Part shown: positions 25,298-53,601 of the stretch, piece by piece
How the letters are laid out: every line of letters begins with the position of its first letter
How positions within the stretch are numbered: position 1 is the first letter of the stretch
NCBI GenBank assembly: GCA_018398765.1
Contig: JAHBMJ010000609.1
Span: 1 to 64,000 of the forward strand
Source of the DNA: Chromera velia
Taxonomy: Eukaryota; Sar; Chromeraceae
Length of the DNA: 64,000 nt
Reading direction: 5' to 3'
Notes under the pieces: generated by a model
The model's input: only the letters and a program-made list of their open reading frames with translations
Told to the model about the DNA's origin: nothing
The model's database searches: none
Program-made: the position numbers and the translations under genes

Positions 25298-26577
25298 TAG
25301 TGACCATATTTGATTTGATTTGATTTGATTTGATTTGAGGTAGGGCTTAAGCTCAAATCAAATATCCAGTCAAGGAGGACCTAGTGTTTAAAGACCTATC
25401 AAATACGATCAAATATTTGATCAATATGACTTTCAACCTCAAATATGAAGGTCCCGAAAAAACTTTTGCAAGTACCAATCCGTCATGCATGCTGATTCAA
25501 ATGAAAAAACCTAAATCTTGATGGTTTGCTCTAAAAAAAAAAACCGTTTTGAGCTGCACTGAAATTGACGTTTCACTCCTTTTTACTTCATGCAGAGGTA
25601 AACCGATCAGCTGAACGTTTTCCTGAACAGCTGTGTTGACTTTTCTGGTGCTGGAACATCTTTTATGGCCCTCTTTTTGAGCGTCTGCAAACATTTTACA
25701 CCCCGCAAAGACATGTCACACAATCATGTCACGTCTGACAAACATGTGCAGCTGCTCCAAGAAAGACAGGAGAAGCGGTTGGAGGGGGTGGAGGGGGCTT
25801 CTGCAGGGCCCGGCGGGAGGACCAATTTAAAACCAAAGGAGACGGCCGCAGACGCAAATGCTGAGAAGGCTGGGGGGAAACTTCCCCCTCCTGAGAAAGT
25901 CATCACTCCGGGTGAAGAAGGCTACCGACCTCTCTATATTCACCTCTAACACAAGGGGCTTGTTGTCGGCCCTGGCGCGGCACAGAGGGTAGCCGAACTT
26001 ACCAACTCTGGATGCTTAGCTGCCCAGAAACAGGACGGTTCCAACACCAACAGCAATAGCAAACGTGTGCGCGGTTCTCCGTCTTACCCCGTTGTCATCT
26101 CTCCGTAACCGAATAGAAGCTCAGGAGCACCCACTCCTGGAAAGCCGAAAAGCCAGAGAAAAAGCTCTCAGCAGCTCCCACCACCGATCGATTCGATTCA
26201 TATTGAAGAAAGTGATCATGAAGAAGAGGAAAAGGAAGTGCCATAAAGCTGAGTGATTGCCACCTCAATTTTTGTACGTGCTCTAACTTTATTGTATGAA
26301 CAAAAAGTCATATGCAATTTCAAATCTATCAATTTTACGTTCTTAATCTCTATTAGTACTAGAGTGAGAATTTTATATATATTTTTTAAAATTTTTGAAA
26401 CACACATCAGAAATGTTCTCATAACTATTGTCATGAAAAAAATGATCAGAGTGACAGTAAGTCAGTGACTCAGTAAGGAACCCTAAGAGGTTAACCTCAA
26501 ATCTTACCTCAAATATCAAATATTTGAGGTTGAAGCTCAAATCAAATCAAATATTATCAAATCAAACATGGTCACCA
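25298..26577 (+). mobile_element. hAT-family element copy 1 with TTTGA-repeat termini
   Basis: Inverted ends (TAGTGACCATATTTGATTTG left; TGGTGACCATGTTTGATTTG as reverse complement of the right end) enclose 1,280 bases. The target duplication is CTCTTTAA (25290-25297) versus TTCTTTAA (26578-26585), 7 of 8. The subterminal region consists of TTTGA pentamers. Compared with copy 2 it lacks the zinc-finger coding block. It retains a frame at 25665-25949 (+) that shares the VTSDKHVQLLQER segment with copy 2 and then diverges into a Gly/Lys-rich tail. It is non-autonomous and nested in an older element. Confidence 0.8.
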
Positions 26578-33154: not shown

Positions 33155-34413
33155 TAGTGACCATGTTTGATTTGATTTGATTTGATTTGAGGTAGGGCTT
33201 AAGCTCAAATCAAATATCCAGTCAGGGAGGACCTAGTGTTTAAAGACCTATCAAATACAATCAAATATTTGATCAATATGACTTTCAACCTCAAATATGA
33301 AGGTCCCGAAAAAACTTTTGCAAGTACCAATTCATTACGCATGCTGATTCAAATGAAAAAACCTAAATTTTAATGGTTTGCTCTCAAAAAAAAAACGTTT
33401 TGAGCTGCACTGAAATTGATGTTTCACCCCCTTTTACTTCATGCAGAGGTAAAACCGATCAGCTGAACGTTTTTCCAAACAGCTGTGTTGACTTTTCTGG
33501 TGCTGGAACATCTTTTACGGCCCCCTTTTTGAGCGTCTACAAACATTTTACACCCTGTAAAGACATGCCACACAATCTGACAGGGTCGAACGGGAAGAAG
33601 GAGGCATTTGGTTTTAGAGCCGGGTACGCAAAAAAAATATGGTCCGTGCAAAAGGGGGCAAATATGATTCAGTGTCAGGTGAAAATACAAGGAGCCGAGG
33701 GGGAAGGAGAAACTATTTGTGGCTGTGAATATGCAGCAGCGGCAACCAGTTCTTTTCAAACCCACCTCATCAATCAGCATGGCTTGACGATCACGTCTGA
33801 CAAACATGTACAGCTGCTCCAAGAAAGATAGGAGAAGCGGTCGGAGGGGGCAGGGGGGACGAAGCAGCCTGACATGCAAACGTTTTTCCCCATCAAAGAT
33901 GAAGCAGAAGCCGTGGTCGCACCATATGCAGAGACGCACGAGAAGAGAATCAAGTGCGATATGCTGATCACTGACTTTCTGGCCAGTGTTGGCTAGCCTT
34001 ATCTGACAGAAAACGAGGCATTAATTGCGAAAGCTGGTCAAGGTACTAGACCTCCGCTACGATCTCCCATCTGTGGGGAAGGTGCAGAGGCATATTTTTT
34101 TTATGGAACTGATAAGTTATAATTTTGTATATATTTTTTTAAATTTTTGAAACACACATCAGAAATATTTTGATAGCTATTGTTATGAGAAAAATGATCA
34201 GAGTGACAGTAAGTCAGTGACTCAGTGAGGAACCCTAAGAGGTTAGAAGAAGAATGAAGAAGAAGAATGAAGTTGGCTTTGCTAGAGTGGAGCCGTGCTC
34301 TTTAACCTCAAATCTTACCTCAAATATCAAATATTTGAGGTTGAAGCTCAAATCAAATCAAATCAAATCAAATCAAATCAAACTAAATATAATCAAATCA
34401 AACATGGTCACTA
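33155..34413 (+). mobile_element. hAT-family element copy 2 with BED-type zinc-finger frame
   Basis: Terminal inverted repeats TAGTGACCATGTTTGATTTG (left) and the same sequence inverted at the right enclose 1,259 bases. They are flanked by a perfect 8-base target duplication ACTCTGCC (33147-33154 and 34414-34421), diagnostic of hAT. Subterminal TTTGA pentamers follow both ends. A frame at 33373-33831 (+) includes CQVKIQG, ICGCEY and FQTHLINQH, a BED-like zinc finger such as begins many hAT transposases. After a stop the same frame continues with KRIKCDMLITDFLASVG, resembling the region after the finger. The catalytic core and dimerisation domain are absent, so this copy is an internally deleted derivative. 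Confidence 0.85.
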
Positions 34414-35661: not shown

Positions 35662-38136
35662 CGTTCAAAATGATCCTTTTGAGCGCTGCCGGCAGGACTG
35701 GGAAGTACTGCTTGACCTTCATGTGATCGAAGAAGCAACCTGCAAACACAGAGTCCAAAAAGGCATGTAGTGGAAACTTAAGCGAATCAATCCTTCTTCC
35801 TGTCAACCGCCCCCCGATTCAGATAGGCAGGTGCCCTCTCCATGAAGGAAATGGGAAGCCAATTCATGGTTCTTAGCCCCCACCCGAACCGAGCACTGCT
35901 TTGCCCTTCACACCTGCCCACTCTAAATGCTTCTACACACTAGCCCTCTGCAAACGCGAATGCAGAATTGAAGGCTTGACTGACAGGATAGGTCCAGCCT
36001 CTTCAGCCGTGTAAGGTCCCACTGCCCTGCAATCCTATGTTCCAAGCCGAATATTTTTGCAGTCTGTCCTTCTGAACCCCCTTTCCTCCCCCCAAAAGTA
36101 GCCACGCAACTGACGTTGAAACCAGAGACTCCTCAAGCAGAAACCGTCTGCACCCTTTCCCCCCGAGTCAGCCAAACGCTTCAAAAACCGGCAGAGGAGA
36201 TGGGAACCCCCTCTGTTGAAGAATTAACGACCTGCAACAAGCAAAATGCAACAACGCAAAGAAGTCCAGTCAGAGCAGAAGTCCAGCGGGACTTTAAAAA
36301 AACAGAAAACAGCAAAACAAGAGGGCACACTGTGAGGGAGTTCCAAAGAAAGGAAAATAGGAAAAGGTCGAAAAATCTGGTGAATGGGGCAGTCTGAGAC
36401 GAGTGAGGACTTAGGGGAGAGAGCGGCTCCTCGAAAGACTTTGTGGAGAGACACCAACGGAGGGGGTCTTCAAAAACGATTTCAGAAGACCGCACAAAGA
36501 AAGCGAGACAGATGGATATGCGAAGGAAAACGAAAGGCCTCCGAATTCAGATGTCTGTCTGTACATCGATCGAAGGCCGAACAAAAGAATTGAAAAACCT
36601 GTTGAATCAGACAAGAAAGCGAAGCAGCTGTCGGGCGCTGACCAAATTTCAGTTCCTCCACAGACTTTGGCAGAGATGCCAGGAGAAGGAAAATCTTCCC
36701 CGGGGAGAGTTTGCAGTCTGAAGAGGGTGGGTTCAATTGGAGGACAAGCGACGGACAAGCATATTCAATCCACGCATACAAAAAGGTACTTTTTGTTTTC
36801 TCTCTATTTTTCAATTGGATTTTTTTCCCCCTTGCCCGCCGTAAGATTGCCTTTTCCTTCTCATGTCGGTTGCCAAAAGTGTGCGATTTGAGGAATTTGA
36901 ATGACCTTTGCATCCGCAAGAAAAGGGGGCGGATGCCGCTACTCAGCCCCTTGTGGCGCAATCACTATCCTGGAAGATGAAAAGTCCAGCGAAGTGTCCC
37001 ATCAAATCTCAGTAAGAGCGACCATGAAAAGCACGCAATTCAACATTTGGCGCAAAAAAGCTTGCTCCGGAAAAACTGCGGGAATAGTTGAGCCGTGTAT
37101 CACAGATGCATGCATTCAGCCGTGAGCTTTCTCCATCCTTTTCTCCCTCTCTCGTCGATGATTCGAGGATTATTGGTATGCATTGGAAGGCTGGTTCAAC
37201 CGCAAGATTGTTTCTCCTTCCTTCCTCTTCTTGTTCAACAAATGAAGTGTCCCGTCTTTCTTTGCCCACCTCCTCTTCTCTCCGTCAACAAAAGAAAGCC
37301 TCCCTTTTGCGCATGCATAAAATGACTCACCTGAGAGCTCCAGGATCTCCAGCTTCTCTTGGGAGGTGGCCTTTTCCTGAGACAAAGGCATAGAGACAGG
37401 GAGGGCGGAATACGGGTTGAAGATTGAAAAGCCACCCAGGCAGGCAGGCACTCACTTGATTCGACCGTCACGCTCAGTTGATGCGTGCAGAGCAGAAGAG
37501 AGTCTTCGAGAAGGGTGAGAACAAATGGAATTCATCTCACACGGCTCCATGCACCCGCCCGTCTTTAGCGGCCGGGAGAGGAGAGGAACGAAAGAGAAAG
37601 AGAAGAAAGGAGGCGCAGGCAGTGACGCGATGGGCTGCTTCTAGCCCTACCTTCCGACTTGATTCTTTCAAAGCGATCATGCAATCAAGAGGGGCCAATC
37701 AGAGAGCGTACCTTCTTCATAGAGCGAATGACCAACCACGCCATGCCGTACGATGCCCTGCTTTGCACGCGCTCAGAGACGTCCTGCGAGAAGGAGAGTG
37801 GGGACAAAGGGACGAGGACGTTGACGAAGGGACAGAGGAGGTTGACAAGCACGAGCCACAACAGAGGTGAAGAGCTGGAGAGAAGGGAGCTGCACACCAA
37901 CTAGGAAACAACTGGAGGGACCAAAATCAAGGCGAACGAGTGTCGTCACAATGGCAAAGCAATCAGCGGTTGAAGGAGGGAGACTGCGTGCAGATAGATG
38001 GTGCAGATAAAAAAATGTATTTATACATCCACTGTCTGTCTCATGAATGCACTGCACTCACCAGAGGGGATAGACCTGCATGATTAAACACGACTGAGAG
38101 TGCGTCTTCCGCCCCGATCGCCTCTTCCTGCGTCAT
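35662..38136 (-). pseudogene. decayed LRR gene, inverted paralogue of the 47256-53601 gene
   Basis: Seven exon copies align one to one with the intact LRR gene on the other strand: 38062-38136 (75), 37712-37783 (72), 37331-37376 (46), 36643-36717 (75), 36115-36231 (117), 35985-36026 (42, a shortened repeat) and 35662-35739 (78). The first five have exactly the same lengths, phases and splice-site types as their partners. Shared protein segments include [53 protein letters not shown], and [32 protein letters not shown]. In the 117-base exon the third codon is TAA where the partner has TCC, so the frame is broken there. Later repeat exons are missing. It is probably a pseudogene, although a regulated short product cannot be excluded. 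It is divergent from the Patched-like gene. Confidence 0.75.
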
Positions 38137-43596: not shown

Positions 43597-45252
43597 AGAG
43601 TGTTGATTGGGTTGGGATTCGTTGCTTTTATGGGCCATTCACATAAAGCTTTCCGGGATGAAATCTGAGCACATCTCTGACTGCTCTCGACGAACAGCTG
43701 ATGAGAAAGAGACGGAAAATCCCTTGTTTGATGACTTAGAGGGAAAAAAAGATTTCAAGCTGCTTGTGGCCACGATCCTCATGCTCTGCTCTGTTTGGTA
43801 ATGCATCTACCAAAGTCCCTCATTTCTCACGCTAACTCATGAGCAAGTCCCTGCGCGCTGCTTTTCAACTCTATGCATGCATGTCTGCGGAGATTGGTGA
43901 GCATTCCTTCCTGTGCGTTTGCGTGTCGATTGTCCTGCTGCCAGTGCTCCCATGTCACGCTGATGTCAAAAAAATGAGTGAGTGAATACACGGTGGGTGG
44001 ATGGATTGGTCAGGAATGAATCGTTTCAATTGTCAGTGAGTCGACTGTGAAAACAGCCTTGATATGCAAATTCTTTGACTGCATGTGAACATGTTGATGT
44101 TGAATGATTTCGACTCTCGTTGAAAGCTTTGGAATGCCGTTGAAAGCCCGTAACGCACGTCGTCTAATCTGGTTAAGTTTTGTCTGATGCCTAGTCTGAT
44201 GCGCGTTTCATGCTAACAGAACGTACAATATGGTGTAATATAGTACAACAACAGTGTTTGGAATGATATTCATTGAATAATTCGGGCACAATACCAGGAA
44301 CTAGGCCAAGACTTTATATTAAATACATACTTTAACTTGAATGTTTTACAATCTAGTTTATAACACAATACTGTTAATTATTAAAATAAAAAAAAAATTA
44401 AAATAAGACTCAATCTCAGAGTAGAAGTAAAATTAAAAGCAAGATGAAAAGTTATAGATACTTGTTTAAGAAACAAAGATAGAAACAAACTAAAACAAAG
44501 TAAGTTAAGACAGTACATCACTCTTAATTGATGCTCAAAATCCAAGATCATACCAAATTAGTAAAAAAAATAAGGAACCAGTTCGTTTTGCTTTTAAAAA
44601 CACGATTCTTAAACCAGATAATGGTCCAAGTTTCAAAACACCTAAGTTACACCTTGAAATTTATACTAAAAAACAGATAACTTTGAACAGTCAAATTCAA
44701 ATAAAAGTTACTGACAGTAAACAATCTGAATAACTTGAAACATTTATTCCCAGATGTGTTTCAAGTCTAGTTTCAAGTTCAAAACTTTTCATAGAGGCAT
44801 GCATGTGCACTTTCATAGAATTCAGTGTATGTTTCAATTAACACACGCTCGCGCACAAACACACGTACGTTGGTTGAGAACTTATGTTTTTTCTTGTAGG
44901 TTTGGGGAATTATGCACTGCGGCCACTGCCAGGGAAGTCGCTCTGTTTTGGTGCTTCCCCCCAGGCTGTTTCCGACAGCAGCACCCTGAACAGATGCCCT
45001 CCATCCCCCCGCCCTTCTTCTTCCTTCTTGGCTCGGAGGCTGCCGCGTGCGCGTCCGGTCGACTCAACGAATGATCAGCCTTGCTCCATCTGTTGACGAA
45101 GAAGAGACTCGCACGCACACACAGTGAGAAAGGCGTACCCAGGCACGCACATCCACATGAAACTGCTTTGAATCATTCGCCCAGATTTTTGCTGAACGTT
45201 GAAACCTCAGTCCTCCCTGCCCTGACCGCAGCCAACCCGTCGTGCCTAAAGA
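43597..45252. other. intergenic region between Patched-like and histone-doublet genes
   Basis: The two genes converge here, so both 3' ends lie in this stretch. 43597-44200 is of mixed composition. 44220-44760 is AT-rich with no coding signal. 44880-45250 has open frames of Pro/Arg-rich character but no domain. Confidence 0.5.
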
Positions 45253-46500
45253 TCAGGTGTCGGTGCGGATTGCAAAAACGCCTGCAATATCTCCATGAGG
45301 CGTGAAGCCTGCAAACACTACGGGGTAGGTGTTGATCAACTCAGTCCCCGAATCTGCCGCTCCCCGAAAATGAAACCAGTCGGTCAACTCTGCGCGCATG
45401 GTGTCAGAAAATCTCTTCTCGAATGGGTGGGGGTCCCCGCCACCATCTGGGAAAGGAGTCAGCATGTGGTCGGCATATTCTGGTCCGATAGGCAGCGCAA
45501 ATGCGCTTGCGTACTGCTCGTTGAGACGCAACCTGCGTGCAAGCCAGACAGCCACATCAGCCGGGTTTCGGCTCGGCAGCTCATCCGGGGGCACGTACGC
45601 GGAAATTGCCGTGTACTCCGCGTCCACGTCCGAGCATTCGTACCGTCCCCAACAATTGACGTGGGTGGTTAGAGCGATGGCGATGCGCTCCATGGTACGC
45701 ACTCGCTCTGGGTCGTGATTGGAGTGGTCGACGCTGCCATCCTCCGCCGGCATCCAGTGACCGCAGTTCCAGCGCTGCAGGGGAAACGCGTCAGTGCCGT
45801 CACACTCACGACCCACCGTCTGCCAGTACAGCAAACAAGGGATCCCCACTTGATCTTCGAGATCCTCTGTGTTACACCACTGCCGACAGGCAGACCCCGC
45901 CTCAGTAGATGCCTGCTGCTCCTGCTGGGCGCCTGTCTCAGGCTGGGCTGCAGCCCCGCCAGTGCCCTGTGCAGGTGCCCCGATGCCCTCGAGTTTGGAA
46001 TCGAAAAAGCGACAGAGCTCCTCGTCATTCTTGAGGGCGGTTCGAATATCAGCAGCACGAATTCCGTCGACACGCGCTGATTTCGCCGCCTCGTGTCCGA
46101 GTTCGATGCACTCCGCAAGCATGTACTCCACAATTGCTACGACCGCAACGGCCTGCTCCACGGTCGCCTCGGGGTAAAACTTCAAAACCTCTGCAGGGTT
46201 CAGCTCAAGACCGGCAGCTTTCGCAGCTTCTTCGTGCACAACACCAGACGATGCCTTGCCGAACTTAAGACGCGCTTTCACCATCTCACTGTGTGCGTGC
46301 TTTCCGAGCTCCTCACCGAATTCGGCTGCAGATCGTGTGCCAGTCTCTCCTTCTTCCCCGACCAGAACCACTCTGGCGGCCGCATGCGTAAGGATTTCCG
46401 CAATTTCAGAAAGGAGGCTCGCAGCAGACGAAGAGACCTCCACATCTCGGCCTGCAATCTGGCCGCAGACAGCCGCGATGCCAGCTTCAAAGAGTGACAT
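45253..46500 (-). CDS. H2B-H2A histone-fold doublet with extra C-terminal domain
   Basis: Intronless frame of 415 residues, starting at ATG 46498-46500. Residues about 1-86 resemble H2B: VSSSAASLLSEIAEIL aligns with ISSKAM.IMNSFVNDIF, and FGEELGKHAHSE aligns with the H2B C-terminal helix start LPGELAKHAVSE. Residues about 91-170 resemble H2A: VAIVEYMLAECIELGHEAA aligns with [20 protein letters not shown], and IRTALKNDEEL aligns with LQLAIRNDEEL. The H2A acidic-patch positions (E and E of AECIEL; D, E, E of NDEEL) are kept. Basic N- and C-terminal tails are missing and the protein is acidic. An Ala/Gln-rich linker (171-205) leads to about 210 residues with several Cys (CRQWC, NCGHW, NCWGRYEC) that I do not recognise. 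H2B-H2A doublets are known from some giant viruses. Here the gene lies among intron-rich genes, suggesting recent capture or retroposition. Confidence 0.72.
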   Translation of the reverse strand: MSLFEAGIAAVCGQIAGRDVEVSSSAASLLSEIAEILTHAAARVVLVGEEGETGTRSAAEFGEELGKHAHSEMVKARLKFGKASSGVVHEEAAKAAGLELNPAEVLKFYPEATVEQAVAVVAIVEYMLAECIELGHEAAKSARVDGIRAADIRTALKNDEELCRFFDSKLEGIGAPAQGTGGAAAQPETGAQQEQQASTEAGSACRQWCNTEDLEDQVGIPCLLYWQTVGRECDGTDAFPLQRWNCGHWMPAEDGSVDHSNHDPERVRTMERIAIALTTHVNCWGRYECSDVDAEYTAISAYVPPDELPSRNPADVAVWLARRLRLNEQYASAFALPIGPEYADHMLTPFPDGGGDPHPFEKRFSDTMRAELTDWFHFRGAADSGTELINTYPVVFAGFTPHGDIAGVFAIRTDT

Positions 46501-47255
46501 GCCTGACCTTCGCACCAAGAAGAAAAGTTTTGCCTTTCACGTGAAGTGTGCAATAAAGATATATAAAGGAAGTGAATCCTGAGGCAGAACGCCACACGAT
46601 GGAATGCGTATTTCTGCAGAGGCAACACAGCTAGTGTGGGTGTGGCGCAGAGGACACTCGATCGCTACGTTGGCCGATCGACAGCTAGAGCACAACCGTT
46701 TGCCAGACTTTTGCTCGCAATTCATGCTGAATCATGCAACGATTCAACCGATTAATCGACTGGATCGAGTGCATGCCCGGGCCATCCACCTCGCCCCTGC
46801 ATGATCGGCACGCGGCAGACCGGACAATTTAAGTTCCGTCCCCGACTATAATTAAGGTCAGACAATTGAAAACTGGCATGCATTGTAACAACAGCTGTGA
46901 AGTGCACGAGCCAATCTGTTCAAGATTCTGTTGCAGAACGAGATTTCAGATGCCAGACAGATATACCACGCCTCTATCGTCGAGATTGCATCGGAGTGCG
47001 TGGTTGGCGTACCAGGGAGTCGGCTCATATACAGTTTCATAGTCTCTTGTCACATGTGACGTTCTCAAAGCGCGGGGATGGTTCCAACCATTTTTCAGAG
47101 AAGCCGTGTTTTCAGATGCACGTGAAAGACGCAGTTCTCCCAGTATACAGATCTTTGCAAAGGAAACAGCTTCATTTGAGAGCCACCGGGCACAAGGAAC
47201 AAGGCTTTAGCACTGGAGTCGCAGTCAGAAGTTGGGCAAAGAGAGACAGAGAGAG
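46501..47255. other. divergent intergenic region, histone doublet / LRR gene
   Basis: About 750 bases between two divergent genes. It contains a TATA-like box for the minus-strand gene (separate entry). No gene was recognised in the remainder. Confidence 0.5.
46556..46567 (-). promoter_or_regulatory. TATA-like box upstream of histone doublet
   Basis: On the minus strand the sequence CTTTATATATC lies about 56-66 bases before the ATG, a plausible distance for a TATA box with a short leader. Such boxes were not obvious at the other genes here. Confidence 0.4.
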
Positions 47256-50200
47256 ATGAGGGGGGAGCAGGTGATCGTGGAGAGGGACGCACTCTCAGTC
47301 GTGTTGAACCACGCAGATCCGTCCCCTTGGGTGAGTACAGAGCATTTATCTGGCTGTTAGTTGATGCCATTGGCAGGGCGGAAGAGAAGACACCGCTCTC
47401 GATCGATTGCGTCGTCCCTCTGCATGCATGTCCCAGGCTCTTGGCCATAATAATGCATATATACATCCAAAGTGCATGCAGTCTCCCTCTTTCAACCAGC
47501 GATCCTTTAGCGATCTGATCCTCACTTGCAATTTGCGCAAGAATTTCTCCTGGCGGGCGGCCTTCGTCTCTCTTCTCTTGAGCTCTTCACCTCTGTCCTA
47601 GTACTGACTGATCAATCTCTTCCGATTCCTGTTCGTGCTTGCGTGCCCTCAACATCCTTCTCGCAGGAGGCCTCCGAGCTTATGCGCACAAAGACTTCGT
47701 ACGGTATGGCATGGCTGGTCCTTCGGTCCATGAAGAAGGTGAGACGTGGCAACTCTTTCACTTCAGCATTTTGACAGAGGTCGGGAGACGTGTGGGCATG
47801 CGCCCTCTTAGTGCTTTCTTTTCTTCGTTTTGCCTCTCCCTCTCTCTGACCCTCTTGTGTTGTAACCCGAGGTTCTTTTATTTGGCATGTTGGTGTGTGC
47901 TTGCGGACGGAGCGCAAGGAGTGAGTGCCTGCTCAGCCCTTCTGTCTGCCTCTTGTCAAATCTGCTTTCCCCTCCTTGCTGCTTGGCTTTGGTGCAGGAG
48001 AAGATCTCCTCTCAAGAGAGGCTCCAGAGTGTGAACATCTCAAGTAAGTGAATCAGCCGAAGTGTCTGCATGGGAGTCTCGGAGGGGGGGNGGGGGGGGG
48101 GGGGAGGGGGATCTGCCCACAGACAGATGGATGCTTTTAGCAGCAGCAAGGAACAAGAGGGAGAACTTTGGCCGGTTCAACAAGTATCTCGAGTTCAGCG
48201 AAAAAGAAAATGCTTTTCGATTCGCAACATCAGCACTATGAGAATGAAGTTTCCGTCCTCTCTGCAACCCCTGAACCAGCCTGCCTCCTTTCTCTCTCAC
48301 TGAGACCGCACAATCGTTTGAAGTCCAACTTGGCGGAAATTAAGCCTTCTGTTTCTGTGTCTTTCGGGGAAAGCGAGGGAAACAGTGTGATGGGAAAGTC
48401 AGAGGGAAGGAAAAAGAAGCGTTTCAAGCAATGCGAAGACCACAAGGGCTTGCAATGATAGGAGGGAGTGTATAGACATACGTATTTGGAAGATGAGGAT
48501 GTACATGGAAGATGAGTATGTGCACTGTTCACTGCATGCTGTTCAGATTGCGAGTTCTCCACGAGAAAAATTGTTCTTCTACTTGCCTCTCTCCCCAAAT
48601 CGGTGAAGGAACTGAAATTCGGTCAGCAATGAAGGCAGCCAGGCAATGCGCAGTCAAACAGCAGCAGATGGTTGTTTTCTTTTTCACTCAACAGATTTTC
48701 TGCTTTTGAAGTCATTCGACTTCACACGGCTCGGCATTGCGATCTTGTATATCCGGCCATCTTTCTCCCGCAGTCTGGTTGGACTTCTGCCCTGATTGAA
48801 TTCTGTTGCGTCGCGGGTTTCTTTTGCAGGTCGTTCCTTCTTTGACAAAGGGGGCTACCCTCTTCTCTGCGGGTTTCTGAAACGTTTGGCTGAGTTGCAA
48901 GAAAAGGGCTCGGGGGTCCTCTGCTTAAGGAGTCTCTGTTTTCTACGTCAGTTGTGTGGCTGGGTTGGCGGGGGGGAAGGGGTGGTTGACAAGGGAAGTG
49001 TAGAGGAAGACGGCACTTTGACCGGCTTTGGGATGGAAGAAATGAATGAAGCACACCAATGGTAAGACGACTGGTAGTGTGAGAGGTTCTTTGAGGTACG
49101 CCTCCACTTTGACCACATGCAGAGGGGTTGGATGAAAGGGAATTGACGGGTCGTCGTTCAAAAGGCCATTCTTGTTTCGGTATCGTGAACTTGTCTTGAT
49201 TTCGTGTCTTTTTGAAGGAAAACCGATTCGCCCTGCCAGAGTTTCTCCTGTGCAGTGACCGGCTTGGAGAAAAACGACAGTATGCAATCTTCATGTAACG
49301 AAGTTCCAGCTTCCGCAGAGACAGGGTGACGGGACTGGCTTGCGTGTACTTCCACACACCTCCGTTCAGCACGTTCTCATCATTTCGCGACGTGATGCAT
49401 ATTTTCTCTGAGCTGCAGGTTGCAAGTTGAATAAAGTACAGAACTTTTTTACGTCACTCCCACTGACGCTTGAGGAGCTGAACCTTTATGGTCAGTCGTC
49501 ATTACTTTTCATCGCTGCATGAAAGCGGATAGTGCAAAAAAAGAGGGTGCATCATGTGATGCTGTCCTTTCTTCTGATTGAAAAAGTCTTTTCTCGACTT
49601 CGAGACATCAGGCATGTCTTCACTCAGCTGCTTACGAGGGCATGCAGCCACTGAGTGAGTCTGCATCAACACAGGCCACTCATGCATGTATAGGAGGAGC
49701 TTACTGGCTGGCTGACTGGCTGCTCGACGCTTGCGGACTGTTCTCAACACCTACATGCCGCTGTACAGGCAACGAGAGCATCACCTTCCATGGGTGGGCG
49801 TCTCTGGGAGAGCGTCTGAACAGCCTTGAACGTCTGAAGAGACTTGACGTTAGGTGTAAGTTGGTGGCTGTGTTGGGGGTGATCGGGGGGGTCCCGGGTA
49901 CGCACCGTCCGTGTTCCGTGTTCCGCACTCACGTCGGGGTGGGGGGGCCGAGGGATTGTGGGCCTCTGGGGCTCCGATTGCCTTTCAGCTGAATGGTCAT
50001 ACACGCTTTTTGGTGTGCCTGTCTGTCTGTCTGTCTGTCTGTCTGTCTGCGTGTCTGTCTTTCTGCAGACTGTTGCTTGGATGACGCGAAAGCGGACCAG
50101 ATCTTCCACTCCCTTCCGCTGACACTTGAGGAGCTGGGGATTGACTGTCGGTAAAAGCTGTATGTACCACGAAGGAATGAGAGGAGAGGGGCATTGCTAC

Positions 50201-50597
50201 TTTGATGTGTCCGAGCACAAGGGAGTGTCTGCCTGTCTTTCATTCTGTGTCTGGAAGCTCATTCTGCCGCAAGAGAAGGGAAAACTTTCAACTGTTCGAT
50301 GCTGCGCGTGTATGAGAACAAGCGGTCAGTGGGTCCTTGATGCCTTCATGCATGCATCGGTCCACAAAATGTGCGCGGGGCTTAATTGCTTGATAGTGTG
50401 AGCAAATGCCCATATTCCTTCCCGTGTGCAGGGAATTCTGGAGTCAGCGCGTCTAGGTGGTCGTCTCTGGGAGCGCGTCTGGAGAGCCTTGAACGACTGA
50501 AGACCCTTCGCCTTTCCTGTCAGTCTGGAAGAGTGTGTGTGTGTGTGTGTGTCTGTGTCTGTGTCTGTGTCTGTGTCTCTGTCTGTCTGTCTGTCTG

Positions 50598-50630
<33 letters not shown>

Positions 50631-50667
50631 TTCCGTGTCTGTGTCTGTGTCTGTGTCTGTCTGTTTG

Positions 50668-50709
<42 letters not shown>

Positions 50710-50791
50710 CGTGTGTGTGTGTGTGTGTCTGTGTGTGTGTCTGTGTGTGTGTGTCTGTGTGTGTGTCTGTGTCTGTGCCTCTGTCTGTTTG

Positions 50792-50845
<54 letters not shown>

Positions 50846-50877
50846 TGTGTGTGTGTCTGTGTCTGTGTCTCTGTCTG

Positions 50878-50935
<58 letters not shown>

Positions 50936-53601
50936 TCTGTGTGTGTGTGTGTGGATGTTATGCACGGAGGGATCTACAGGAGACGCGGCTGCGAGAGTAG
51001 TTGTAGACGAGTTAGATGTCCGGTCTTGTTTATTTCGGGCGACCCTCCATGCATCAAACGCGAAACCTCTTGGCAGAAGAGCATGCGTCTGTCGTTGGGT
51101 CTCGGACTGTAAGTCAGATGAGCGATTTCACGTGCTTCACGGTATGTTTGCCTGCAGGGTGCGAGTTGTATGACGAGAAGGTCGAGATGTTTTTCCCATC
51201 TCTTCCAGTCACGCTGGAGGAGCTGCATCTCCAAGGTCAGCCGGCTCGCATTGGTGATATTCCATGCATGTCCACCTTGAGCTGAGAGGAACAAATGGGG
51301 GTCTATGTGCTGCCCTTTGAACAGGTCAGGCAACATCTCTGCCCTGTTCTTCCTCAATTGTTCTGCATCTTAGCCGTCATTCCAGAGGCATGCAGGCGTC
51401 GCCCTGTCTCAAATACAAAGACGTCTAGTCAGCAGGCCCGCATGCAAACGTGCGCAAGTGCGTACACGAGTTCGATGTATCTGCGTGGCCGGTAGTCCTA
51501 CTTGTTGTCCACGATTGTATGCGACCTTGCAGCCAACAACAAAATCAGCTCTGTTGGGTGGGCATCTCTGGGAACGCGTCTGAAGAGTCTGGAGCAGCTG
51601 AAGAAGCTGGACCTCTATAGTCAGCCGGGCCTGTGTGTCTGAAAAGGTGTTCAGGTGTACGTGCAGTACGTAACGAAATGCAGGGAGGAAGAGGCTAGAT
51701 TTACTGCCGGGGGGGAAGAGGTCCAGGCCGATTATCCTGTTTTATTGGCGAATTCTGAACAGATGGAACGCATGTGTGGTGCATGTCTCTACACGTCTGC
51801 ATGCAGGCTGCGGACTGGAGGCTGCCAAGGTCCAGTCTCTGTTCCCGTCCCTTCCGACCTCGCTGGAGCACTTAAATCTTTCCGGTCAGTTCGCCTACTC
51901 AAACTCTTTGTAGAGATTCCTCATAAGGGCCGGGTAGTGTGGAAGATCCGGCCGCATGGAGGTAGAAGCCACAGGCAACTAAGCTGTCCAAATCTGTCCA
52001 GCATCCCTCTGCACGGTCTGAAGGCGGTGAAGGAAATTAGGCCTGCGTTTATACGAAGAAATTTGCGGGGGGGGCGTCGTGCATTGAAAAAGTGGATACT
52101 GAAAAATGTCTCTTTCCCATACATTCATGTCGTTTTCGACACCTGCCTACTTGATTGTGCAGGCTCACATCTGGGTATCGACGGGTGCAGGTGTTTGGAA
52201 GCACGTCTGCGGTGCCTCGATCGGCTCAGGATGCTCGATCTTTCTTGTGAGTCAGGGCTGTGTGTCCTCACCTGCGCCAAAGAAGAAGCAACTGTGACTG
52301 CAAAGCGGTTGGACTTTTTTGTGAGAGCGTGCTTTCGTGCCAGGCATAGGGGTCCAAGCAACCATCCATTCAGTTTGGGGATGACTGTATCTCATCTGAC
52401 TGCATGGCACATTCCTGGTCTCCTTTTTTGTCTGCAGGGTGCGGACTGCAGGACGGGACGTCCCAGCTGCTGTTTCCTTCTCTTCCGGTCACGCTGGAGG
52501 ATCTGGATTTGCAGGGTGAGTGAGGCTTTCTATATGCCGGAGGACGTTTACACGAAGAAGCTCGAGGACCTGAGTTTTCAGGGTCCGCTGCCAGTCTCTA
52601 ACCTAGTTTAAGCGTTTTGCAGGTGAACAAGAGAGAGATGGTGCGGAAAAGAGTTAGCCTGCGTGTGCAAAAAGGTTTTGCAATGCCATGATCGAGAACG
52701 TGTATTCATGCATGTTTTGGAGAGTACTTGAATGCTGCCTCGTGTCTCCTTTCAACAGTTGCACGTTGTTATCGACTCGGAAACCCCTGAATGTTGTTCT
52801 CAGGCAACGAGAATCTCGGAATGATTGGATGGACATCTCTGAAGGAGCGTCTAGAAGACCTTCAGCGACTGAAGAAGCTAGACCTAAGCAGTGAGTCTGG
52901 TTTGGAGTGCGGGTTTGCCGCCAGATGCATATTCAGAAAAGAATCCGGCAAAGGGGTTTGTTGCGATCGTATCAGGCTGTAGGAAGCTCGGAACGGGCGC
53001 ACAACCGCATGTCTCAGTTCAGTTGGACTCCAGTTGTATGCCCCCTGATTGTTTATCCGATTTATGTGGCATTTCTCCCTGCAGTGTGCGATTTGAATAA
53101 CGAGAAGATCGAGCATCTCTTCCCATCGGCTCCGGATACGCTGGAGGAGTTGGTTCTTCAATGTCGGTAGGCGCCGTTTGAAGTTGTGAGAAGCTCTAGC
53201 TGAGAGAGAAACGCAAAAGACGTGGGAGGCTTCGTGCGGGTCGGGGAATCCCCATTTCCACGGATGCGGGTCGAGAAAGTTTTCTCCACTGTCGCTTGTG
53301 TGTGACCAGCTAAACGGACGACAGGCCAGCTAGGAACACTCAACCAAGGTTTATTTATGACTCAGAAAGGATTCGAACAGGGGGCCCGAAATTCCATGAA
53401 CTAAAATGCTGGTGCAATAGAAGCTGGAAAGATGAATTGATGCATCGATCTCTACGATGGTTGCATGACATGGTTTTTGGCACCCCCTGCATGCATGCCG
53501 GTTTGTTTGCAGTCAACTCGGGTCTGAATGCCGCGGGATGCGCGTCTCTGAAAGAGCGCCTGGGCAGTTATGTCCGAATTGTGTGTGCGTGGGACGCCTG
53601 A
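47256..53601 (+). CDS. leucine-rich repeat protein, one repeat per exon
   Basis: Seventeen exons total 455 residues: 47256-47330, 47667-47738, 47998-48043, 48547-48621, 48830-48946, 49419-49490, 49769-49855, 50069-50146, 50432-50518, 51158-51235, 51533-51619, 51807-51884, 52163-52246, 52438-52515, 52804-52890, 53085-53162, 53513-53601. The first two introns are phase 0 and all others phase 1. Each later exon encodes one repeat, alternating a 28-29 residue type A (for example [20 protein letters not shown]) and a 24-26 residue type B (for example [19 protein letters not shown]), in the manner of ribonuclease-inhibitor repeats. The final exon stops part-way through a type A repeat. There is no signal peptide or membrane segment, so it is probably an intracellular binding protein. 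The N-terminal 49 residues ([20 protein letters not shown]...) are unassigned and shared with the inverted paralogue. The partner is unknown. Confidence 0.87.
48081..48110 (+). repeat. poly-G tract with one undetermined base
   Basis: About 24 Gs with an N at 48091 within an intron of the LRR gene. The true length is uncertain. Confidence 0.9.
50530..50953 (+). repeat. about 420 bases of GT/CT/GTCT repeats in LRR intron
   Basis: Intron 50519-51157 is dominated by alternating blocks of GT, CT, TGTGTC and GTCT units, with at least three cycles of (CT)n followed by (GT)n. The long open frames here are low-complexity artefacts. Confidence 0.95.

Follow-up and report, generated by a model that had tools for sequence, protein, structure and literature searches.

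The stretch examined here, referred to as the window, covers the first 64,000 bases of contig JAHBMJ010000609.1 (119,848 bases) in the Chromera velia assembly, which totals 177.8 Mb in 4,040 contigs. On its minus strand, positions 45253..46500 hold a complete open reading frame of 415 codons plus stop, running from the ATG at 46498-46500 to the TGA at 45253-45255 with zero internal stops and with the preceding in-frame stop 12 codons ahead of the ATG; its product begins with a histone doublet, an H2B-like fold followed by an H2A-like fold. The H2B-like fold, delimited by an H2B profile and a structural model, covers residues 1-84 (46249..46500, minus strand), with predicted helices at residues 5-16, 24-47, 53-61 and 63-83; the H2A-like fold, delimited by an H2A profile and the same model, covers residues 95-170 (45991..46218, minus strand), with predicted helices at 102-108, 114-141, 149-158 and 160-166 and a shortened loop 1. 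The doublet is followed by a linker rich in Q, A, G and E (residues ~171-205; 45886..45990, minus strand), the borders of which were judged by eye on the sequence and of which residues 171-190 are of low confidence in the model, and by an acidic C-terminal part containing Cys and Trp (residues ~206-415; 45256..45885, minus strand), which gave no library match. A sequence-only reading of this DNA had described, with no strand given, a fused H2B-then-H2A protein in one 415-residue frame; the frame is intact and of that length and both halves score above shuffled sequences on their own profiles, but the doublet takes up only the first ~170 residues, and the linker and ~210 further residues had gone unmentioned.

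In phmmer searches against PDB chains, single collinear matches run through both halves in the order H2B then H2A, at E 5.9e-9 for the engineered H2B-H2A.Z chain 6k0c_D, 8.4e-8 for the Marseilleviridae doublet 7n8n_B and 1.3e-7 for 4nft. Searched against the whole genome, a Marseilleviridae doublet finds the locus in one match across both halves (E 4.5e-7, 33% identity), and only a host H2A ranks above it (E 5.2e-15). Scored separately, as the sequence-only reading had proposed, each half matches its own profile and not the other's: residues 91-180 reach 39.6 bits with the H2A profile and residues 1-90 reach 21.1 bits with the H2B profile, against 7.6 and 10.0 bits for the best shuffles (2,000 made; 1,800 scored for H2A and 1,868 for H2B), whereas the swapped pairings give 2.6 and 0.0 bits. 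The evidence is clearly weaker for the H2B half. The motifs AECIELG, IRTALKNDEEL and GEELGKHAHSE singled out in the same reading are all present, and 31 of the 66 columns that are near-invariant among 50 doublets (at least 90% one residue) are kept, distributed as acidic 8/9, basic 3/8, hydrophobic 15/27 and other 5/22. Profiles, model and fold matches together predict two consecutive histone folds on one chain, H2B then H2A. Pfam assigns the whole protein to no family; PF00125 reaches at best 12.4 bits (with the H2A piece) against a cut-off of 26.4, and Pfam domain annotation alone would thus overlook the doublet. For the H2B piece, the sole match is one to Mur_ligase_C under the threshold (E 0.037), presumably by chance; this match, one to DUF5860 (E 0.05) and those of two short-chain-dehydrogenase models to residues 13-113 (E 0.05-0.08) would speak against a histone identity, lie far under the cut-offs and were taken as chance. 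A chance or mis-framed reading frame is ruled out by the shuffles together with the PDB matches.

A model of the doublet region based on an alignment of 50 doublets, with a predicted local distance difference test (pLDDT) score of 87.7, comprises the two histone folds to be expected from the sequence-only reading, arranged in an overall pseudo-dimer fold; a single-sequence model, which also takes in the C-terminal part and has a pLDDT of 38, places helices at similar positions. In the former, a short helix at residues 89-95, ahead of the H2A-like fold, may correspond to the H2A alpha-N helix, and the alignments indicate a shortening of the H2B alpha-2/alpha-3 stretch. The fold matches of the model in BFVD include LCMAC101 proteins. 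Sequence profiles and this confident, alignment-based model support a picture, part of the favoured reading below, in which residues 1-170 would fold on themselves into a pseudo-H2A-H2B heterodimer. The C-terminal part is set apart from this: residues 186-415 match nothing in Pfam, NCBIfam or PDB at E <= 10 and nothing in plasmid records at E <= 1, their best PHROGs match has an E-value of only 0.32, and a six-frame search of the genome returns no convincing paralogue of the C-terminal part (best non-self E 0.55).

The doublet is acidic. Residues 1-170 carry a net charge of -11 with an isoelectric point (pI) of 4.9 (residues 175-415, -20; whole protein, -32), compared with fold charges of +7 for the Marseilleviridae doublet P0003, +5 for a host H2B fold and +5 for a host H2A piece. 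Residues were counted on an alignment to a Xenopus single-chain dimer, with 13 of the 16 other natural aligned doublets compared, at what we take to be the DNA-contact, H4-contact and acidic-patch positions of nucleosome structures. A basic residue occupies only 3 of the 14 DNA-contact positions, against 8-14 in the 13 other doublets, while an acid occupies all eight acidic-patch positions: E64 and E72 in the H2B half (H2B E105 and E113) and E125, E130, E133, D159, E160 and E161 in the H2A half. Four Marseilleviridae doublets have 6, 5, 6 and 6 of these acids, and nine others have 7 or 8; the difference between 8/8 patch acids and 3/14 DNA-contact basics has a p-value of 0.001 in a Fisher test. 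At the presumed H4-contact positions, 3 of 10 residues are identical to Xenopus in the query and 1-3 of 10 in the four Marseilleviridae doublets, and this count thus does not separate the query from them. Marseilleviridae doublets do form nucleosomes (PMC12297534), and the nucleosome acidic patch is described as consisting of eight acids (PMC9145170). The equivalent of H2B K120 is kept as K79. In sequence and alignment, no docking strand of the H2A GGVLPNI type is found past residue 170, and no basic tail is seen in the sequence; the absence of basic tails and the retention of the H2A acidic-patch acids, the latter extending across both halves, bear out what had been noted from the sequence.

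At full length, the protein finds in the protein database (the 7,993 most-word-sharing candidates scored) only a 372-residue copy of itself, P0001, on a 1,816-base contig, which may be a transcript or genomic DNA and is not counted as evidence of expression. A 200-residue piece finds nothing at E <= 10 among 3,225 candidates, with E-values scaled to 5.8 billion sequences, a scale at which known doublets may also fail. In the profile search for doublets, each of the 7,981 candidates scored had E <= 10; among the 120 matches listed, 53 went into the profiles, 50 into the model alignment and 46 into the tree. Engineered PDB chains and rows confined largely to one half were left out, as were P0073, P0080 and P0105 from the model alignment and, further, P0016, P0092, P0093 and P0101 from the tree. 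Some of the doublet rows kept are probably animal mis-annotations; P0080, used in the profiles, is the gar case named as such (PMC9145170). H2B-H2A doublets also occur in protist data sets, namely in P0025 (an MMETSP transcript) and P0100 (a EukProt gene model); such records may hold real doublets or genes of infecting viruses, and plain doublets may thus be commoner in protist records than published lists say. The doublets P0107 and P0116 lie on contigs of 484,729 and 464,302 bases, which are likely giant-virus genomes. Four scans of viral contigs confirmed no relative; the one among them with the Marseilleviridae doublet itself as query also found nothing, and these scans therefore say little about absence.

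The surroundings of the gene are those of a eukaryotic nuclear genome, as the sequence-only reading had it. The window holds 151 frames of at least 110 residues, and of ten picked by eye for a Pfam scan, five exceed the cut-off (Melibiase_2, Piwi, CobW, Patched SSD and RPE65), a sixth matches RPE65 below it and the remaining four have no match; the matching frames look host-like. Elsewhere in the assembly are translations that read as H3 genes, as several H2Bs (two starting mid-gene, as after an intron), as one H2A.Z exon and as an H2A that adjoins a run of N; H4 was not identified among the 15 matches from the histone search of the assembly, and no further H4 search was made. It is the window families and these ordinary-looking histones that point to the nuclear setting. 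An intact virus insertion is unsupported, 6 of the 10 scanned window frames matching host-type families. A six-frame search of the assembly found no second copy of the doublet gene, and no flanking repeats of at least 16 bases were found at 44200-47600. The third-position guanine-cytosine (GC) fraction of the doublet is 0.61, that of four neighbouring exon pieces 0.59-0.71; correlations of relative synonymous codon usage do not distinguish the sense frame of the doublet from its own antisense, so codon usage says nothing for or against a foreign origin.

Several other histone loci of the assembly are divergent or incomplete. The 5' side of the best-matching host H2A gene (L020, C3925) is cut by a run of N; an H2B at C2162:96772-97011 (L010) is divergent, with an altered C-terminal helix (RGEIGRNANSEGTRSLV); and diverged H3 copies on C1557, C1899 and C821 (L008, L009, L015), two of them broken by stops, look like CenH3 in sequence. 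On the minus strand of C3452, at 107643-108422 (L028:1459-2238), lies a second acidic, divergent H2A-like frame of 260 residues, whose last ~60 residues are H2A-like (28.7 bits with the H2A profile against a shuffle maximum of 4.2; PDB H2A at E 6.4e-5) and in which no H2B half is found by profile. Within the window itself, the plus-strand frames 25602-25946, inside an AT-rich island at 24-28 kb with 36% GC, and 33367-33828 have TDQLNVF.NSCVDFSGAGTSF and SDKHVQLLQER in common and are probably a transposon relic; frames of one type recur at 49747-51741 (minus strand), a PNFSS.TD.GR frame is common to 36642-36977 (plus strand) and 48239-48622 (minus strand), and both sets look like dispersed repeats.

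The closest known systems are the doublets of Marseilleviridae (H-beta-H-alpha; PDB 7n8n and 7lv8) and related viral doublets, in which H2B is likewise followed by H2A on one chain; the Marseilleviridae proteins share the FG/YG..LG.HA..E..KA motif with the query and are the best partners of its H2B half among 125 sequences. In comparison, both the fold and the tails of the viral doublets are basic and these proteins wrap DNA, whereas the query has an acidic fold from which the DNA contacts are mostly lost, keeps 8/8 rather than 5-6/8 patch acids and carries a large C-terminal part. A long C-terminal addition of ~190 residues follows the doublet of LCMAC101, compared here by description (PMC9145170), although that doublet is from a viral metagenome and its C-terminus is related to a neighbouring viral gene. 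A mini H2B-H2A variant of Melbournevirus (mel_149; PDB 9cvt) has 168 residues, is found in the virion and binds ~90 bp of DNA with a viral H4-H3. Among eukaryotes, the histone (H) domain of Son of Sevenless (Sos) is a pseudodimer in H2B-H2A order, within a multidomain protein and, like the fold predicted for the query, without DNA-binding charge; it is an example of such a pseudodimer that no longer binds DNA and works in signalling (PMC13088155); Sos is a Ras exchange factor of animals (and Capsaspora), its identity to the query is 21% over 154 aligned residues, and no Pfam family, and hence neither DH-PH nor Ras-GEF domains as in Sos, is matched in residues 186-415 at E <= 10. ABTB2/Cca3 and Cca3S, compared by description, also have an H2B-like then an H2A-like fold of low identity to histones (PMC13088155); they are animal proteins, ABTB2 has ankyrin and BTB domains, and neither domain has a Pfam match in the query.

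The sequence-only reading knew of no stand-alone nuclear gene of this type. The double-histone-fold architecture itself is already recorded in eukaryotes, since a 2026 review lists the Sos H domain, ABTB2/Cca3, Cca3S, SPT3 and animal HSIH-DHF, the last being animal fusions of high identity (PMC13088155). No histone doublet was confirmed among eukaryotic histones according to a 2022 review (PMC9145170). Neither list, as far as it was consulted, has an acidic H2B-H2A doublet that keeps the patch, carries an unrelated C-terminal part and belongs to a eukaryote whose histones otherwise look ordinary, and the literature searches made here returned no report of one. Splicing mis-annotation, blamed for the animal cases (PMC9145170), is not applicable to one uninterrupted frame in a eukaryotic contig.

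The origin of the doublet is graded equally between two accounts, each put forward tentatively and each short of an even chance. A doublet gene of a giant virus may have been captured by the host nucleus and then have drifted, a history compatible with either of the functions discussed below. The frame is intronless, a viral doublet with ~190 extra C-terminal residues is known in LCMAC101 (PMC9145170), and Marseilleviridae doublets take the top four places for the H2B half among the 125 sequences (scores of 87, 87, 80 and 78, the next being 69), with host H2Bs lower at 51, 45 and 39. The H2B half also shares with Marseilleviridae the G/G of the FG..LG motif and further residues, 9 of 46 diagnostic columns in all, although among 46 control doublets the divergent P0118 has 8 of 48 and the runner-up 5. 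The H2A half shows no particular viral leaning: host H2A scores 84 and the Marseilleviridae doublets 76, 73, 72 and 66, with other doublets up to 105. In the tree, which carries a warning of long-branch joining, the end branch beside Marseilleviridae measures 8.95 changes per column, and those window frames that match Pfam resemble host genes; searches of the genome for capsid and VLTF3 were empty, but the control genomes were silent too, so these searches are weak evidence and no proof of absence. Alternatively, host H2B and H2A genes may have fused long ago and diverged almost beyond recognition. The lead of host H2A over the four Marseilleviridae doublets on the H2A half (84 vs 66-76) argues for such a fusion, as does the acidic H2A-like frame on C3452, by which divergent H2A relatives do exist in the genome, whereas on the H2B half the host H2Bs do no better than the best of 300 shuffles scored against P0003 (57).

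As to function, the favoured reading, to which a probability of roughly 0.45 is given, is that of a eukaryotic double-histone-fold protein acting as a histone-dimer mimic or docking surface. An acidic pseudodimer with 3 of 14 DNA-contact basics, with H2A loop 1 and the H2B alpha-2/alpha-3 stretch shortened and with no docking strand would be expected neither to wrap DNA nor to dock on H3-H4; judged from its sequence, the doublet should on balance package DNA poorly and pair poorly with H3-H4. Since all eight patch acids are kept, the most likely mechanism would be the offer of an H2A-H2B-like docking surface. On the nucleosome, many readers use arginines to grip the acidic patch, which is also the surface that stays intact in the doublet, and the doublet would present it to chromatin proteins with arginine anchors or, alternatively, to H2A-H2B chaperones or import factors; its role could be that of a decoy, a tether or a scaffold, with the linker and the C-terminal ~210 residues as a putative second module. 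Of the three possibilities raised in the sequence-only reading, a mimic binding acidic-patch readers would fit best, a captured viral gene stands level with a host fusion, and the case for a divergent host dimer in special chromatin suffers from the acidic fold and the lost DNA contacts and docking strand. Several points weigh against a docking surface. The contact and patch positions counted are presumed ones; on the stricter count of near-invariant columns of 50 doublets, acidic 8/9 against basic 3/8 gives p 0.05, and leaving out the four Marseilleviridae rows (acidic 9/10 against basic 4/10) gives p 0.06. Most patch acids are near-invariant in doublets generally, 9 of 13 rows keeping 7-8 of 8, so some may serve folding. 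The doublet alignment behind the model may favour the fold, the single-sequence pLDDT being 38, and the reading does not account for the C-terminal part.

The main rival is a use like that of Sos, in which the double histone fold would be a structural or regulatory module packed against either a partner in the cytosol or the C-terminal part of the protein itself, and the acids would be leftovers without any chromatin partner. This is possible, if on the doubtful side: eight of eight patch acids exceed what a role away from chromatin would seem to require, and no Sos chain is among the best 60 of 207 PDB sequence matches. A working packaging or variant histone, pairing with H3-H4 and wrapping DNA in special chromatin as Marseilleviridae doublets do, could account for the modelled pseudo-dimer fold, for K79 and for an H4-contact count no worse than that of the nucleosome-forming viral group, yet it is very improbable given a fold of pI 4.9, the scarcity of DNA-contact basics (3/14 vs 8-14 in 13 other doublets) and the lack of docking strand and basic tails. 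Equally improbable is a decaying relic or chance frame devoid of function; the very long branch in the tree and the absence of any relative found besides the copy P0001 are what a relic might show, but 415 codons remain open, specific histone residues persist in both halves (31/66 near-invariant columns) and the patch acids are complete. The docking-surface reading also has a bolder form, which is distinctly speculative: the first nuclear-encoded H2B-H2A doublet outside animals, a packager turned free-standing mimic of the nucleosome surface, would have kept the whole patch, shed DNA and H3-H4 binding and gained a new C-terminal module, allowing the cell to titrate or recruit patch readers off chromatin; its ancestor may have been a giant-virus doublet.

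Fused core-type histones have a central place in the debate on nucleosome origins. If the mimic reading is true, the Chromera doublet would be a natural separation-of-function histone, with the patch but without DNA, and as such usable as a probe for acidic-patch readers; it would also be evidence, in addition to the animal examples, that a histone dimer can take on a new use as an interaction surface.
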